From: an uncultured Latescibacterota bacterium | GTDB lineage: Bacteria > Latescibacterota > UBA2968 | DNA length: 64,000 nucleotides | Reading direction: 5' to 3' | NCBI GenBank assembly: GCA_958295785.1 | Contig: OY282377.1 | Location: 2,556,394-2,620,393, forward strand | Shown here: in pieces, positions 50,118 to 56,299 of the stretch | How the letters are laid out: each line of letters begins with the position of its first letter | Numbering within the stretch: the first letter of the stretch is position 1 | The notes under the pieces: model-generated | What the model was told of the DNA's origin: nothing | Database searches by the model: none | The model's input: only the letters and a program-made list of their open reading frames with translations | Made by a program: the position numbers and the translations under genes

Positions 50118-51167
50118 TCACACCGCCATTTTCGCGCGGATGGTCGGGTGGTGCTGGTAATTGACCAGTTCAAAATCGTCCATCTCAAAATCGTCGATCT
50201 CGGTTTGACCGCGGTCTGCAATCCGCAACTGGGGCAGGGGATACGGCGTGCGAGACAGTTGCGCTTTGACCGCGTCGAGATGGTCGAGATAAATGTGTGC
50301 ATCGCCGAGGACGTGAATAAATTCGTGCGGCACGAGCCCTGTGATTTTGGCGACCATGTGCAACAATGTGGAATAGGACGCGATGTTGAGGGGCACGCCC
50401 AAAAACATATCGCCTGATCGCTGATACATCTGCAAAGACAAGTTGCCCTCTGCCACGTAAAATTGGAATAGGACATGACACGGGGGCAGGGCCACTTTCT
50501 GAGGGCTTATTTCAGCCGCATTCCACGCATTGACCAAAATGCGCCGCGATTCGGGATTTTCTCGAATCAAATCTATCGCCTCTTGAAGTTGATCCACTTT
50601 CTTGCCAAAGCGGTCCTGCCAGCGCCGCCATGGATGACGTGTCACTTTCTTTTTTTGATCGTCCCACTGGTACTCCCACTGCTCACCAGAATTAATTTCT
50701 TTTTTTTTTCCGTTCACTTTTTTCTTTTGATCGTCCCACAGGCACCGCCACTTCTCACCAAAATCAATTTCTTTTTGTCGCTCGTCCACCTCACTTGAGT
50801 CCTCTTTCTTTCCATAGCAAGTCTGATATTCCCGCCACTGCATACCGTAAATGCGCCCCATTTCACCGTCTTCTTTGTACACCCTTCTACCATTCGAACA
50901 ATAATCCTTGTAATTGCCATCCCACAGCCGATTGCTTTTCAAATAAGTCGTCAAATCGTGAATGTTGTCTGATCCCGACACAAACCACAGCAATTCCGAG
51001 AGCATGGACTTCCACACCAGTCGCTTGGTCGTCACGGCCGGAAATCCATCGGCCATCGCGTAACGCGCCTGAAGGCCAAAACACGAGATCGTGCCCACGC
51101 CCGTGCGGTCATTTTTTTGCACGCCGTGGTCGAGAATATATCGCAGTTGATCGAGATATGTGTGCAT
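50118..51167 (-). CDS. thyA: Thymidylate synthase with a duplicated charged insertion
   Basis: 349 residues; the usual enzyme is about 264. Makes dTMP from dUMP and methylene-THF. Family core is intact: KNDRTGVGTISCFG, LLWFVSGSDNI, the catalytic Cys in LPPCHVLFQFYVAEG, YQRSGDMFLGVPLNIASY, HVLGDAHIYLDHLD, and the NYQHHPTIRAKMAV end. Between GRIYGMQWREYQ and HPWRRWQDRFGKKVDQ an extra stretch of about 60 residues contains two copies of a 24-residue unit (WDDQKKKV, with EKW or EQW). It is upstream of folA, the usual partner that regenerates THF. Confidence 0.94.
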   Translation of the reverse strand: MHTYLDQLRYILDHGVQKNDRTGVGTISCFGLQARYAMADGFPAVTTKRLVWKSMLSELLWFVSGSDNIHDLTTYLKSNRLWDGNYKDYCSNGRRVYKEDGEMGRIYGMQWREYQTCYGKKEDSSEVDERQKEIDFGEKWRCLWDDQKKKVNGKKKEINSGEQWEYQWDDQKKKVTRHPWRRWQDRFGKKVDQLQEAIDLIRENPESRRILVNAWNAAEISPQKVALPPCHVLFQFYVAEGNLSLQMYQRSGDMFLGVPLNIASYSTLLHMVAKITGLVPHEFIHVLGDAHIYLDHLDAVKAQLSRTPYPLPQLRIADRGQTEIDDFEMDDFELVNYQHHPTIRAKMAV

Positions 51168-51748: not shown

Positions 51749-51776
51749 CTATCCTCTGCCCTGATGTGATGCGATA

Positions 51777-52090
51777 TGTTGCCAGCAAATGATTCCCTTG
51801 ACCTTACGCAGTCATTCAGAAAAGCCATTGCAACCAGGCCATCCCAAAAGACCATCAGATAAAACCATCACGCACAGCGCGCAAGTCCATCCGCAACCCA
51901 CATCCATTTTGCAACCCACCTTGCAGGCCGGCGCATGTCGTGCTGTTACAAAAGCGCTTTGCGCTGTGCAAGCCTCTCGGCGTTTGAGAGCGGCATTTTT
52001 TGCCTACTTTTTTTTGCTGTTGAAAAAAAGTCGGTCGCCGAAGGCATCAAAGGCAACCCACAATGCTATACGTCTGTTCCTTATTCCTCA
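51777..52090. repeat. Long intergenic element, copy B (inverted, shortened)
   Basis: Reverse-complement copy of the element at 46824-47261 and 55081-55522, lacking an internal part of about 100 bases around the AACTGC/GCAGTT hairpin. Shares TTGACCTTACGCAGTCATTC, the GGCGCATGTCGTGC region and the T-rich/A-rich hairpin. Confidence 0.8.
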
Positions 52091-52205: not shown

Positions 52206-53564
52206 TTAGTGGCCTTCGTGGATCGTCCCTCTCGCTTCTGCGATTTCTAACAGAGCATTGGTTTTTACCACCTGCCCGATCAAATCGTGCTCGGTTGCAT
52301 CGGTGATTTGGACTTCGACGAAGTCGCCGATTTGTGCGGGGCCGGTGAAGAACACGGCGCCGTCGATCTCGGGCGCGTCCATGCGCGTGCGACCAACATA
52401 GTCATAAGTCGGATCGTCTGAGACCTCATCTACCAGCACTTTGAACGCGCGCCCAATGTGTGCGGCGTTCAATTCCCCCGAGATGCGCGCTTGCAATGCC
52501 ATCAGGTCGTTCAGCCGGTCGCGCTTGACCTCTTCGGGCACGTCATCGGTCAGGTGACCGGCTTGCGTGCCATCTTCGTGGGAATAGGTGAAGCCGACGA
52601 GGCGATTGAATTGCATTTCATCGACAAAATCCATCAATTCCGCGACGTGTTCATCGCGCTCTCCCGGAAATCCCGCGATGATCGACGACCGCAGGGTCAA
52701 ATTCGGGATGCGTGCGCGCAAGGTGTGGATCAACTTGCGGATGCCCGCCTGCGTGGTGCTGCGGTTCATCGCCTTCAAAATGGGGTCGGATGCGTGCTGA
52801 ATGGGCAGGTCGATGTACCCGCACAATTTCTCTTCGCTCGCCAACAGGTCGATCAACTCATCGCGCCAACCCGTCGGATAGGCGTACAGCAACCGCACCC
52901 AATCGAGGCCCTCGATTTGGATCAATTCCCCGAGCAAATCCGTCAATCGGGGCCTGCCGTACACATCCGCGCCATAGCGCATGGTGTCCTGCGCGATAAG
53001 GGCGATTTCGCGCACGCCATGGGCCACCATGCGATGGGCTTCGGCGACCAAGCGATTCAGGTCTTCGCTTTTGTTTTTCCCGCGAAAATTGGGAATGGCG
53101 CAAAACGCACACGTTCGGTCGCATCCATCCGAGATTCGCAAATACGCCCAGTGTTTTGGCGTGAGCAAGTGCCGAGACTCCGCGTCTCGAATCGTCTGAA
53201 TGCGCGATGTGCCCAGCAAGTGATCGCAATGCGCCACGATGTCGCGCTCGCCCACAAGGCCCACGATCAGGTCCGCCTCCACGAGTTCAGCTTCCAATTC
53301 TTTGCGGTATCGCTCGGCCAAACAACCGGTGACAATAACGCCTCGGCACCGCCCTTTGTCTTTGTATTCGGCGGCGTCCATCACGGTTGCAATGGATTCT
53401 TCTTTGGCGGGTTCGATGAATCCGCAGGTATTGACGACAATGATATCGGCGTCTTCGGCTTTGTCCGAGAGGTCGTACCCATTGAGCGCGAGAAGGCGGT
53501 GCATGCGCTCGGAATCGACCGTGTTTTTCGGGCAGCCCAGGGTGATGAGGTTGATCGTCGGCAT
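52206..53564 (-). CDS. rimO: Ribosomal protein S12 methylthiotransferase
   Basis: 452 residues. Radical-SAM enzyme that adds a methylthio group to Asp-89 of ribosomal protein S12. N-terminal MTTase domain: INLITLGCPKNTVDSE with the first cluster cysteine, NTCGFI and VTGCLAER with the other two. Radical SAM motif CDRTCAFCAIPNFRG (CxxxCxxC) near residue 150, and a C-terminal TRAM domain with VGRTRMDAPEIDG. The CPKNTVD sequence separates RimO from MiaB. The right edge is near the psd operon. Confidence 0.95.
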   Translation of the reverse strand: MPTINLITLGCPKNTVDSERMHRLLALNGYDLSDKAEDADIIVVNTCGFIEPAKEESIATVMDAAEYKDKGRCRGVIVTGCLAERYRKELEAELVEADLIVGLVGERDIVAHCDHLLGTSRIQTIRDAESRHLLTPKHWAYLRISDGCDRTCAFCAIPNFRGKNKSEDLNRLVAEAHRMVAHGVREIALIAQDTMRYGADVYGRPRLTDLLGELIQIEGLDWVRLLYAYPTGWRDELIDLLASEEKLCGYIDLPIQHASDPILKAMNRSTTQAGIRKLIHTLRARIPNLTLRSSIIAGFPGERDEHVAELMDFVDEMQFNRLVGFTYSHEDGTQAGHLTDDVPEEVKRDRLNDLMALQARISGELNAAHIGRAFKVLVDEVSDDPTYDYVGRTRMDAPEIDGAVFFTGPAQIGDFVEVQITDATEHDLIGQVVKTNALLEIAEARGTIHEGH

Positions 53565-53612: not shown

Positions 53613-54128
53613 TTATCTAAAAATCGCCCACACATAGACTGCGATAAGCAACGCGATAAGGGCAGCGAATGCGATCCCTTTGGATTTGCGCGTGGGTACA
53701 GGTAGGAGCATCGCCGCGATCATCAACCCATAAGCCACGAATAAAATTTGCCTGACCCACTCGTCGGGCAAGACAAAGCGCGTGGTAAATGCCAGCGGGA
53801 GAAAGACCGTCGAGATCGGCACGACGTCGCGGTCTGATTCGGCCAATCGCGCGGCGCAAACCCCCATATATCCAATGAGCAAGGCGATGGATAGCGTGCC
53901 CCTCAACCCAAAGCAATAGGCAAAAATAGCGGGCGCGAAACCACAAGTACACATGGCAACGAGGCGGTTGAGCGCGATCTGTTTGGGATCGGTCCCCAAA
54001 TTGACCAGCGCGGCGAACAGCAGACATACGAGGGCGACTTCAAATTGCGCCTGCATGGCAAACATCGCCATACCAAAGCCAAAGAACAGACCCGAGAGCG
54101 CGATCAGGTTGGATGCCTTCAAGGTCAT
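53613..54128 (-). CDS. PssA-like membrane protein lacking the CDP-alcohol transferase motif
   Basis: 171 residues with about six hydrophobic helices. The end of the expected motif region reads NRLVAMCTCGFAPAIFAYCFG, which matches the DSLADxxSFGxAPAxxxY part of phosphatidylserine synthases; but the essential D-G-x2-A-R-x8-G-x3-D-x3-D set is not present: the aligned Asp positions are Asn and Ala, and the segment upstream is about ten residues shorter. Its gene overlaps psd by ATGA, the usual pss-psd arrangement, so an origin as PssA is likely, but the protein is probably not an active synthase. Confidence 0.7.
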   Translation of the reverse strand: MTLKASNLIALSGLFFGFGMAMFAMQAQFEVALVCLLFAALVNLGTDPKQIALNRLVAMCTCGFAPAIFAYCFGLRGTLSIALLIGYMGVCAARLAESDRDVVPISTVFLPLAFTTRFVLPDEWVRQILFVAYGLMIAAMLLPVPTRKSKGIAFAALIALLIAVYVWAIFR

Positions 54129-55018
54129 GGACTGACACCCAGTTGCGAACCCATCAGAACTTGGACCTCGATGCCCGCCCGCGTGTCGCGGATCAAGTCC
54201 GCGTCAAAGACGATGCGCCCGGGCTCGAACAGGAGAACCACAGTGGATCCGCCAAATTGGAAATAGCCCTTTTCGCGGCCGCGCGCAACCCTGCCCGACG
54301 GGTGTGTTTGGACGATGCGCCCCACGGCCCAGCCCGCGATTTCTATGATCATCACGCGGCCAAAGTACGCGGTTTCGAGGGATGTCATTGCGCGCTTGTT
54401 GTGGGCGAACAAATCGGGTTTGACAGCGAGCAAAATGGGATTGACCAAATAATAGCGTCCAGAAATTTCAGTCGGCGGCGTTGCAATGCCGTCAACCGGA
54501 AAGTGAAAGCGGTGATAGTCTGCCGGCGCCAATCGGATCACCAGCGCGGCGCCATTGCAATACGGCGTTGCCGATGTTTTTGACGCCATCAGAGATGCGA
54601 TATCCACATGCGACCCCTTGACGGGCAAACGGGTTTGTTCACAGAGTTTGGGATAGGCCAACACCTTGCCATCGGCGGGCGAACAAAAGACGGTCGGGTC
54701 GGCCGCAAAGGGGCGCGCGCCGGGTTTGAGCGCGCGCGCGAAAAACGCATTCAAATTTTTGTACTGCTCAACGGGCAACGCGACTTCGTCGAGATCGATA
54801 TCGTATTTTTTCACAAAGGATCGAATTTTTTTCCGCGATCCCACCCAATCCATGCCCTTGCCCAGCAGCCAGCAAAAGGCGTGTGTATTGAGAAGCATAT
54901 CGCAAACAAACATCGCCACGCGAGACCGCGCAAGGGCGTATTGCACCCTGGGCAAAATCAGCGGTTCGGAAATCATCTCGCCCGTTTTGCGGTCGCGGTA
55001 GATCACCTGATCGGTCAT
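54125..55018 (-). CDS. psd: Phosphatidylserine decarboxylase
   Basis: 297 residues. Pyruvoyl enzyme making phosphatidylethanolamine from phosphatidylserine at the membrane. Self-cleavage motif FGGSTVVLLF near residue 257 (usual LGST; here GGST, still with the Ser that becomes pyruvoyl), plus the His in YHRFHFPVDG and the ADGKV segment. ATGA overlap with the PssA-like gene downstream. Gram-negative-type membrane lipid synthesis is implied. Confidence 0.92.
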   Translation of the reverse strand: MTDQVIYRDRKTGEMISEPLILPRVQYALARSRVAMFVCDMLLNTHAFCWLLGKGMDWVGSRKKIRSFVKKYDIDLDEVALPVEQYKNLNAFFARALKPGARPFAADPTVFCSPADGKVLAYPKLCEQTRLPVKGSHVDIASLMASKTSATPYCNGAALVIRLAPADYHRFHFPVDGIATPPTEISGRYYLVNPILLAVKPDLFAHNKRAMTSLETAYFGRVMIIEIAGWAVGRIVQTHPSGRVARGREKGYFQFGGSTVVLLFEPGRIVFDADLIRDTRAGIEVQVLMGSQLGVSP

Positions 55019-55080: not shown

Positions 55081-55522
55081 GAGGAATGAGGAACAGACAT
55101 TCTGTACGGATCATGGGTTGCTTGTCTCAAGCATTTGGTCCTATAGCATCGTTTGTTGCCTTTGATGCGTTGGCTACGCCTGTGCCTACGGCGTGCGGCG
55201 ACCTACTTTTTTTCAACAGGAAAAAAAAGTAGGCGAGCGGGGTACAACTGCCCCAGCAGTTCAAAAATGCCGCTCTCATGCGCCGAGGGGCTTGCACAGC
55301 GCAAATCGTTTTTCTAGTAGTACGGCATGCGCTGGCCTGCAAGGTGGGTTGCAAGAGGGCGGTTCGTTGCGAGACGGCCTTGCGCGCTGTGCGTGATGGT
55401 TTTATCTGATGGTCTTTTGGGATGGCCTTGTTGCAATGGCTTCTCTGAATGATGGCGTAACGTCAAGAGAATCATTTGCGGGTCGCATATCGCACCACAT
55501 CAGGCTAACAGAAAATCAATTT
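55081..55522. repeat. Long intergenic element, copy C
   Basis: Matches copy A over about 430 bp, with GAGGAATGAGGAACAGAC at its left end (shared with copy B). Internal hairpin CTACTTTTTTT with AAAAAAAGTAG around CAACAG, plus a second AACTGCCCCAGCAGTT hairpin. The right end supplies the stop codon of the pseudouridine synthase gene. Confidence 0.85.
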
Positions 55523-56165
55523 ATATAAATCCCTTGGGCCAAAATGCTTCTGGCGCGGCCTCAAAGGTCATGCGTTCTTTTTGGGTCGGATGCGCCACGG
55601 TGAGCGATAGCGCGTGGAGGGCGATGGCGCGGTTGGGAAATGGCGCGCGCGATCCGTATTTGAAATCGCCCCACACGGGATGCCCGATATGCGCGAATTG
55701 CACGCGAATTTGATGGTGGCGGCCCGTGGCGAGGTTCACGCGGATGTGGGATATGCCCCGGCGATATGCCACCCGCTCAAACGAGAGTTCAGCGCGTTGG
55801 CCACCGCGCGTCACGATGCGGCTTTTGGTCTGCCGCCGCGCAATGTCATGCACCAGCCGACCGGTTTTGGCAACTTTGCCCTCCACCAGTGCCACATAGC
55901 ATTTTTCAACGGTTCGCTTTCTGAACTGATCCGACAGACGGCGCGCTGCTGTTGACGTGCGCGCAAAGACCACCACGCCAGAGACCGGGCGGTCCAAGCG
56001 GTGGACCAATCCGAGAAACACATTGCCGGGTTTGTTGAATTTGACCTTGAGAAAAGCTTTGCCCCTGTCGAGCAAATTCTCATCGGCGGTGTGGTTGCCC
56101 TGTATGAGCATGCCAGCGGGTTTTCGCGCGACCAGCAGATGGTTGTCCAAATAGAGAATATTCAT
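55521..56165 (-). CDS. RluA-family pseudouridine synthase
   Basis: 214 residues from the ATG at 56165, where MNILYLDNHLLVARKPAGM begins the family; an upstream in-frame ATG is ignored. Catalytic Asp lies in LVHRLDRPVSGVVVFA. It also carries LATGRHHQIRVQFAHIGHPV and the KYVALVEG segment. It isomerises uridine in rRNA or tRNA; the exact site is unknown. No N-terminal S4 domain. Its last codons and stop lie in the border of long element copy C. Confidence 0.9.
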   Translation of the reverse strand: MNILYLDNHLLVARKPAGMLIQGNHTADENLLDRGKAFLKVKFNKPGNVFLGLVHRLDRPVSGVVVFARTSTAARRLSDQFRKRTVEKCYVALVEGKVAKTGRLVHDIARRQTKSRIVTRGGQRAELSFERVAYRRGISHIRVNLATGRHHQIRVQFAHIGHPVWGDFKYGSRAPFPNRAIALHALSLTVAHPTQKERMTFEAAPEAFWPKGFI

Positions 56166-56299
56166 ACACTGCAATTTACACGCGAAACGCCAAAAGCGCA
56201 ACCGCCGCGCCCATTTTGAGATTGACCGCGAGAGGCGAATGGGGTATAAATGGCGGGCCCGAGATGCAACCACCTAAGAACGCGAATAAAAGGTGATCG

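Follow-up and report, generated by a model that had tools for sequence, protein, structure and literature searches.

The window analysed here is a stretch of 64,000 nucleotides from the genome of an uncultured Latescibacterota bacterium (G000; a single contig of 5.66 Mb). It encodes a phosphatidylserine decarboxylase gene (psd), which is followed directly by an open reading frame for a protein of 171 amino acids that resembles phosphatidylserine (PS) synthase (Table 1). The decarboxylase matched PF02666 (E 1.1e-51) and the NF001941/PRK00723 type (E 8.5e-87), the latter with 291 bits, which is below the model cut-off of 371. The ATGA overlap between both genes, pointed out in an initial annotation of the locus, lies where it was described and is the same in all four genomes that carry the small gene. 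Read by eye, an RluA-like open reading frame lies upstream of psd in all seven genus loci displayed and in G013. The block of rimO, the small gene and psd is flanked by an inverted repeat of roughly 290-310 bases (51760-52045 and 55191-55504) with three arm pairs that are 84-91% complementary. The window also encodes a thymidylate synthase gene (50118-51167, minus strand; TIGR03284, 325.6 bits, in two stretches) with an internal insert that keeps the frame and contains a 72-base tandem repeat of 1.9 copies (50642-50776).

Table 1. Features of the psd region, with positions given in the window.
Feature	Position	Strand	Basis
rimO, next gene downstream of the putative pseudo-synthase	52206..53564	-	TIGR01125, 479.6 bits (cut-off 356.95); synteny
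Putative motif-less PssB-like pseudo-synthase, 171 aa	53613..54128	-	ORF; orthologues; intact homologue; omega about 0.35
Acidic [ED]xDRD loop, codons 97-101, at the TM4-TM5 junction	53826..53840	-	two alignments
Collapsed catalytic segment, codons 43-58	53955..54002	-	alignment: N43 = D1 slot, N54 = D3 slot, A58 = D4 slot; D2 deleted
ATGA stop/start overlap of psd and pseudo-synthase	54125..54128	-	same ATGA in G001, G003, G007
psd, phosphatidylserine decarboxylase, 297 aa	54125..55018	-	PF02666 and NF001941 matches
RluA-type pseudouridine synthase, upstream of psd	55521..56273	-	PF00849, E 1.7e-31
Orthologues of the motif-less gene			L008-L010 in G003, G007, G001

The helix pattern and the CGFAPAIFAYCFGL block of the 171 amino acid protein are those of PS synthase, a likeness that the initial annotation had read from the helices and the CGFAPAIFAY stretch. 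That annotation had also claimed that the aspartates of the CDP-alcohol transferase motif and their spacing were lost, and alignment with intact homologues bears this out. All four aspartates, which bind metal in the family, are gone: the first is replaced by asparagine, the second is deleted, the third is replaced by asparagine and the fourth by alanine. The D3 and D4 slots are anchored without gaps by the invariant L56, C60 and GFAPA columns; the positions of D1 and D2 hang on gap placement, on which two alignments concur. Identical replacements and gap positions occur in all four motif-less proteins of the genus (G000, G001, G003, G007). At the motif the shared gaps are 9 and 4 columns long. 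The losses extend beyond those described initially, since a gap of 14 columns removes the TM4-TM5 loop, the last helix is shortened by 3 columns and SPILRQ has disappeared from the N-terminus. By comparison, the homologues in G014, from the same family as the window's genome, and G021, from the same class, encode the full motif, e.g. LIDLFDGFFAKRAKRTPEASAAGPELDSLIDICAFGFAPA. A copy of the motif shifted elsewhere, which the initial annotation had named as grounds for giving up its claim, was sought across the 171 residues, and neither a DG dipeptide nor GxxxDxxxD was found. The protein contains just seven acidic residues (E30, D47, E97, D99, D101, D122, E123). An acidic [ED]xDRD loop, absent from the intact homologues aligned, is present in all four motif-less proteins at the place where the TM4-TM5 loop was deleted, and the block GFAPAIF[AV]YCFGL is retained in all four. 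Taken together, the protein is probably catalytically dead, and judged by the defining motif DxxDGxxAR(x8)GxxxDxxxD it falls outside the enzyme family.

Profile searches with the 171 amino acid protein listed neither PF01066 (Pfam) nor TIGR00473 (NCBIfam) at E<=10, where it should be kept in mind that the HMMER filters remove most matches above about E 0.1. The sole NCBIfam row was archaetidylserine synthase at chance level (E 0.9), and the G003 orthologue gave the same negative result with both profiles. As a single query the window protein matched no solved structure, and no relative was found in the genome-contig or plasmid collections. Its match to the intact G014 homologue had an E value of 5.4e-28, and a profile built from the window protein and five intact homologues matched the solved type II PS synthase MjPSS at E about 1e-6. 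In a tree of both kinds of synthase protein, the motif-less proteins form a clade (support 100/100) that is sister to the G014 protein (96/97). The stem of this clade has a length of 1.0 compared to 0.11 for G014, followed by 0.18 for G000 and 0.36 for the stem of the other three. The genus psd genes are likewise sister to the psd of G014 (100/99) in a tree of 24 of 26 rows, from which G017 and G024 were left out. By homology and phylogeny, the 171 amino acid protein thus clearly descends from the CDP-alcohol phosphotransferase / type II PS synthase family.

Structure prediction added little. The family fold comprises six to eight TM helices; the AlphaFold model of the 171 amino acid protein predicts seven but is poor (mean pLDDT 56.3, pTM 0.43), too poor to help with a structure-based search for a shifted motif. 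Foldseek and VIA-align searches with this model listed unrelated helical proteins, among them 14-3-3, TPR and designed bundles, and no CDP-alcohol phosphotransferase was among the 50 rows of either listing, which is uninformative given the model. For the model of the intact G014 homologue (pLDDT 68.9), MjPSS made up the three top Foldseek rows, although weakly (E 0.013-0.038, TM-score 0.36). The dimer interface of MjPSS is described as consisting of helices 1, 3 and 4 (PMC8633023). With helix boundaries taken from the poor model, identity between the G000 and G014 proteins was 15/20 in TM4, 17/26 in TM3, 12/21 in TM1, 11/20 in TM6, 9/21 in TM7, 5/17 in TM2 and 4/15 in TM5, so that TM1, TM3 and TM4 are the best preserved by fraction, narrowly above TM6. 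Between G000 and the three other motif-less proteins only TM3 (19-22/26) stands out, and TM1 (13/21) and TM4 (12/20) are no better than TM6 (12-15/20) and TM5 (9-10/15). Since TM1 and TM4 are not specially conserved inside the genus, the argument for a retained dimer interface is weakened.

Among 60 genomes, the window's own included, clear matches to the 171 amino acid protein were found in G001, G003 and G007 (62-67% identity), G014 (52%; 50% over the aligned positions in a later alignment) and G021 (47%), and all remaining rows had E values above 0.02. Three states of the locus can be distinguished. G014 encodes desaturase, cdsA, psd and an intact synthase gene in a row. In four of the eleven genus genomes the motif-less gene lies between psd and rimO, and in the other seven (G002, G004, G005, G006, G008, G009, G010) the open reading frame is cleanly absent and rimO starts roughly 20-25 bases after psd. 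The genes of the intact G014 pair are spaced by about 30 bases instead of overlapping. A genus tree of psd, pssA and rimO, in which none of the nine inner branches was starred and G000 sits on a long branch, gives no number or order for the losses of the motif-less gene.

We refer to the intact, motif-bearing relatives as PssB. They were identified in G014 (L011/L077), G021 (L078), Symploca (L079), Planktothrix (L080), Argonema (L081) and Pleurocapsa (L082). The Pleurocapsa gene is split over two frames, and was left out of the two later alignments for this reason; it sits at the end of its contig, where no cdsA or psd was seen, and its motif was read from the open reading frames. In five of the six loci cdsA and/or psd adjoin pssB: a cdsA-like gene in G014, G021, Symploca and Planktothrix, and psd in G014, where pssB is directly downstream of it, Symploca and Argonema. 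A desaturase gene occurs at the G014 and G021 loci. A search of 64 genomes of the phylum (E<=1e-18) found an intact close homologue solely in G014 and G021, the G023 row being its canonical PssA. In a survey of ten genomes a close relative of the G014 cdsA was similarly restricted to G014 and G021, and seven genus genomes had a distant match only. Both PssB proteins passed PF01066 (45.5 bits in G014 and 48.2 in G021, cut-off 22) but stayed below the TIGR00473 cut-off (69.0 and 62.4 versus 107 bits) with the motif intact. PssB is probably a PS synthase, a reading that is helped by its linkage to psd and by the case of G021 (a metagenome-assembled genome, 91% complete), in which psd is present and PssB is the sole PssA-like match besides a weak match in another protein.

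The initial annotation had suggested a genome search for another pss gene. Six PF01066 loci were found elsewhere in the window's genome and one of them, L003, encodes a canonical PssA with the complete motif (TIGR00473, 114.9 bits, cut-off 107). This PssA is present in all eleven genus genomes, the ten others being 80-84% identical to that of the window's genome, and psd gave one match per genome in all eleven. Because intact PssA and psd occur together in every genome of the genus, the route to phosphatidylethanolamine (PE) is complete without the 171 amino acid protein. Of the proposal that the gene is a decaying synthase replaced by another, the replacement is supported, since intact PssA is found in 11 of 11 genomes. 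Simple decay is disfavored by the frame, which is intact in four genomes, and by purifying selection, although relaxed constraint and the lack of the gene in seven of the eleven genomes leave it some probability.

The 171 aligned codons of the four motif-less genes contain no indel between them, no frameshift and no stop, whereas in a simple neutral simulation that placed all changes on one lineage only 7 of 300 copies were free of stops at equal divergence. NG86 estimates of dN/dS were 0.27-0.28 for G000 versus the three others (95% bootstrap 0.17-0.43, with upper limits of 0.40-0.43). Within the trio of G001, G003 and G007 they were 0.34, 0.42 and 0.53, the last being indistinguishable from 1, and the confidence interval of the pair G003-G007 (0.22-1.45) includes 1. 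In a GY codon model over the four genomes the log-likelihood was -1387.42 with omega free and -1408.28 with omega fixed at 1 (best of six kappa values), a difference that rejects omega=1 with a 2dlnL of about 41.7. For the trio alone omega was about 0.5, and omega=1 was worse by a 2dlnL of about 7.7 with kappa at the grid edge. The grid optimum of omega was 0.35 for the motif-less gene compared to 0.15 for psd, 0.10 for pssA and 0.05 for rimO, truncated by the end of the locus to 312-314 codons in each of the four dN/dS rows. The base composition of G000 differs from that of the rest, which neither the simple dN/dS nor the codon models take into account. By these estimates the motif-less gene is kept by selection, more loosely than psd, pssA and rimO. 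It thus combines two features of a pseudoenzyme, namely the absence of conserved catalytic residues and maintenance by selection, here relaxed relative to its neighbours.

We lean, with little more than moderate confidence, towards the explanation that the 171 amino acid protein is a pseudoenzyme derived from PssB as a redundant second synthase, retained for a non-catalytic role as a partner in the membrane that some species can do without. PssB, linked to psd, would belong to the CDP-alcohol phosphotransferase family, probably as a type II PS synthase, and in an ancestor of the Latescibacterota genus the canonical PssA at another locus would have made it redundant. It would have lost its cytoplasmic active-site elements, namely the N-terminal segment and the loops between TM2 and TM3 (with the motif) and between TM4 and TM5, and retained its membrane helices and the tight coupling to psd. 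The pseudo-PssB is presumably translated together with Psd. Given the ATGA overlap in all four genomes, a putative membrane partner of Psd or PssA is the simplest functional reading. Most likely the helix bundle would position or stabilise Psd, or couple it to PssA, for PE synthesis; a heterodimer with PssA that aids PE synthesis might be an alternative, and the [ED]xDRD loop is a candidate contact site. Such a role would be useful rather than essential. Of the two options offered in the initial annotation, the scaffold derivative would accordingly be the best remaining. The more specific proposal is of a bacterial CDP-alcohol phosphotransferase pseudoenzyme whose translation is coupled to that of Psd, for which it would be a membrane scaffold or an allosteric partner, and which would link Psd to the distant PssA, possibly via the [ED]xDRD loop; it is tentative, and we would not call it probable.

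The strongest competitor, which we regard as rather doubtful though well worth considering, is slow decay, i.e. a redundant synthase without an active site is being lost and the open reading frames are relics of it. The remaining constraint would then reflect selection against a misfolded or toxic membrane protein, or selection on psd-coupled translation, rather than any function of the relics themselves. Such a process would fit the clean deletion in seven of eleven genus genomes, the redundant PssA, the long stem branch of the motif-less clade and the relaxed omega of the trio with one pair indistinguishable from 1. However, it has to contend with the rejection of omega=1 over the four genomes and its poorer fit in the trio (there with kappa at the grid edge), with reading frames that stay open in four of four genomes when neutral copies rarely do, and with the retention of GFAPAIF[AV]YCFGL in all four proteins. 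It is far less probable that the protein is still an enzyme that has formed its active site anew, perhaps around the [ED]xDRD loop, and that possibly acts on a new substrate. The new acidic cluster, shared by the four motif-less proteins and absent from the aligned intact ones, would suit this idea, but no CDP-binding DG..A[RK] element is left and the D3 and D4 slots hold asparagine and alanine in all four. An annotation or assembly artefact, in which a sequencing error or a wrong start removed the catalytic segment, can practically be dismissed, since even though nine of eleven genus genomes are multi-contig assemblies, the same gaps recur in four separate genomes, including one assembled as a single contig, and the deletions are in-frame and internal.

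The protein preferred here as a pseudoenzyme shares with the type II PS synthase PssA (PF01066; MjPSS, PDB 7B1K/7POW) common descent, a predicted multi-helix membrane architecture, the GFAPA block after the motif position and psd as partner, but differs from it in lacking the four aspartates, the DG..A[RK] element, the TM4-TM5 loop, the N-terminal segment and a PF01066 match. The intact PssB proteins (L077-L082) are its closest relatives, and that of G014 is also encoded directly downstream of psd; in contrast to the window protein they retain the motif, and a cdsA-like gene borders L077-L080, joined by a desaturase at the first two of these loci. Many enzyme families are known to include pseudoenzymes, and an inactive homologue of AdoMet decarboxylase activates its enzyme by heterodimerisation (both PMC10211241). 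Like that case, the window protein would be a dead paralogue under selection beside an active enzyme of the pathway; it differs in being polytopic in the membrane, in belonging to a phospholipid pathway and in having a partner that is putative. The parts of the open-licence literature available to us contained no description of a dead CDP-alcohol phosphotransferase member that is maintained by selection, or of one at a psd locus, and we found no joint treatment of Latescibacterota and phosphatidylserine in the open-licence literature. Dead paralogues beside active enzymes are thus of a known kind, and the CDP-alcohol phosphotransferase case looks new. With intact, motif-less and cleanly absent forms at related loci and the active paralogue identified, the path by which a redundant enzyme may turn into a pseudoenzyme and finally disappear becomes traceable. 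In bacteria PS is a low-abundance intermediate, and the locus opens the testable question of how it passes from synthase to decarboxylase.

Some further observations concern related genes. Of the 16 genomes outside the genus that were searched for psd, 13 had it. In G011 and G012 (same family) and G022 (same class), with completeness of 95%, 91% and 90%, a canonical PssA-type match was present while psd gave no match at E<=1e-5, which might reflect membranes that accumulate PS, a different decarboxylase or a gap in the assembly. In the window's genome, L006 (G000:C1:752297-755590) encodes a nucleotidyltransferase, by reading, fused to a CDP-alcohol phosphotransferase that resembles inositol-phosphate cytidylyltransferase/transferase (NF041135 at E 1.4e-27, with a score well short of the model cut-off). 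Cyanobacteria are usually said to lack PE. The cyanobacterial pssB loci might possibly constitute a dedicated cassette for PS/PE-type, perhaps ether, lipids, and no title on such a cassette was found in the open-licence literature. By reading, L079 contains a PKS. L080 contains a thioester reductase, an acyltransferase (PF01553) and an FAD-linked oxidase, and the latter looks, again by reading, like alkyl-DHAP synthase.
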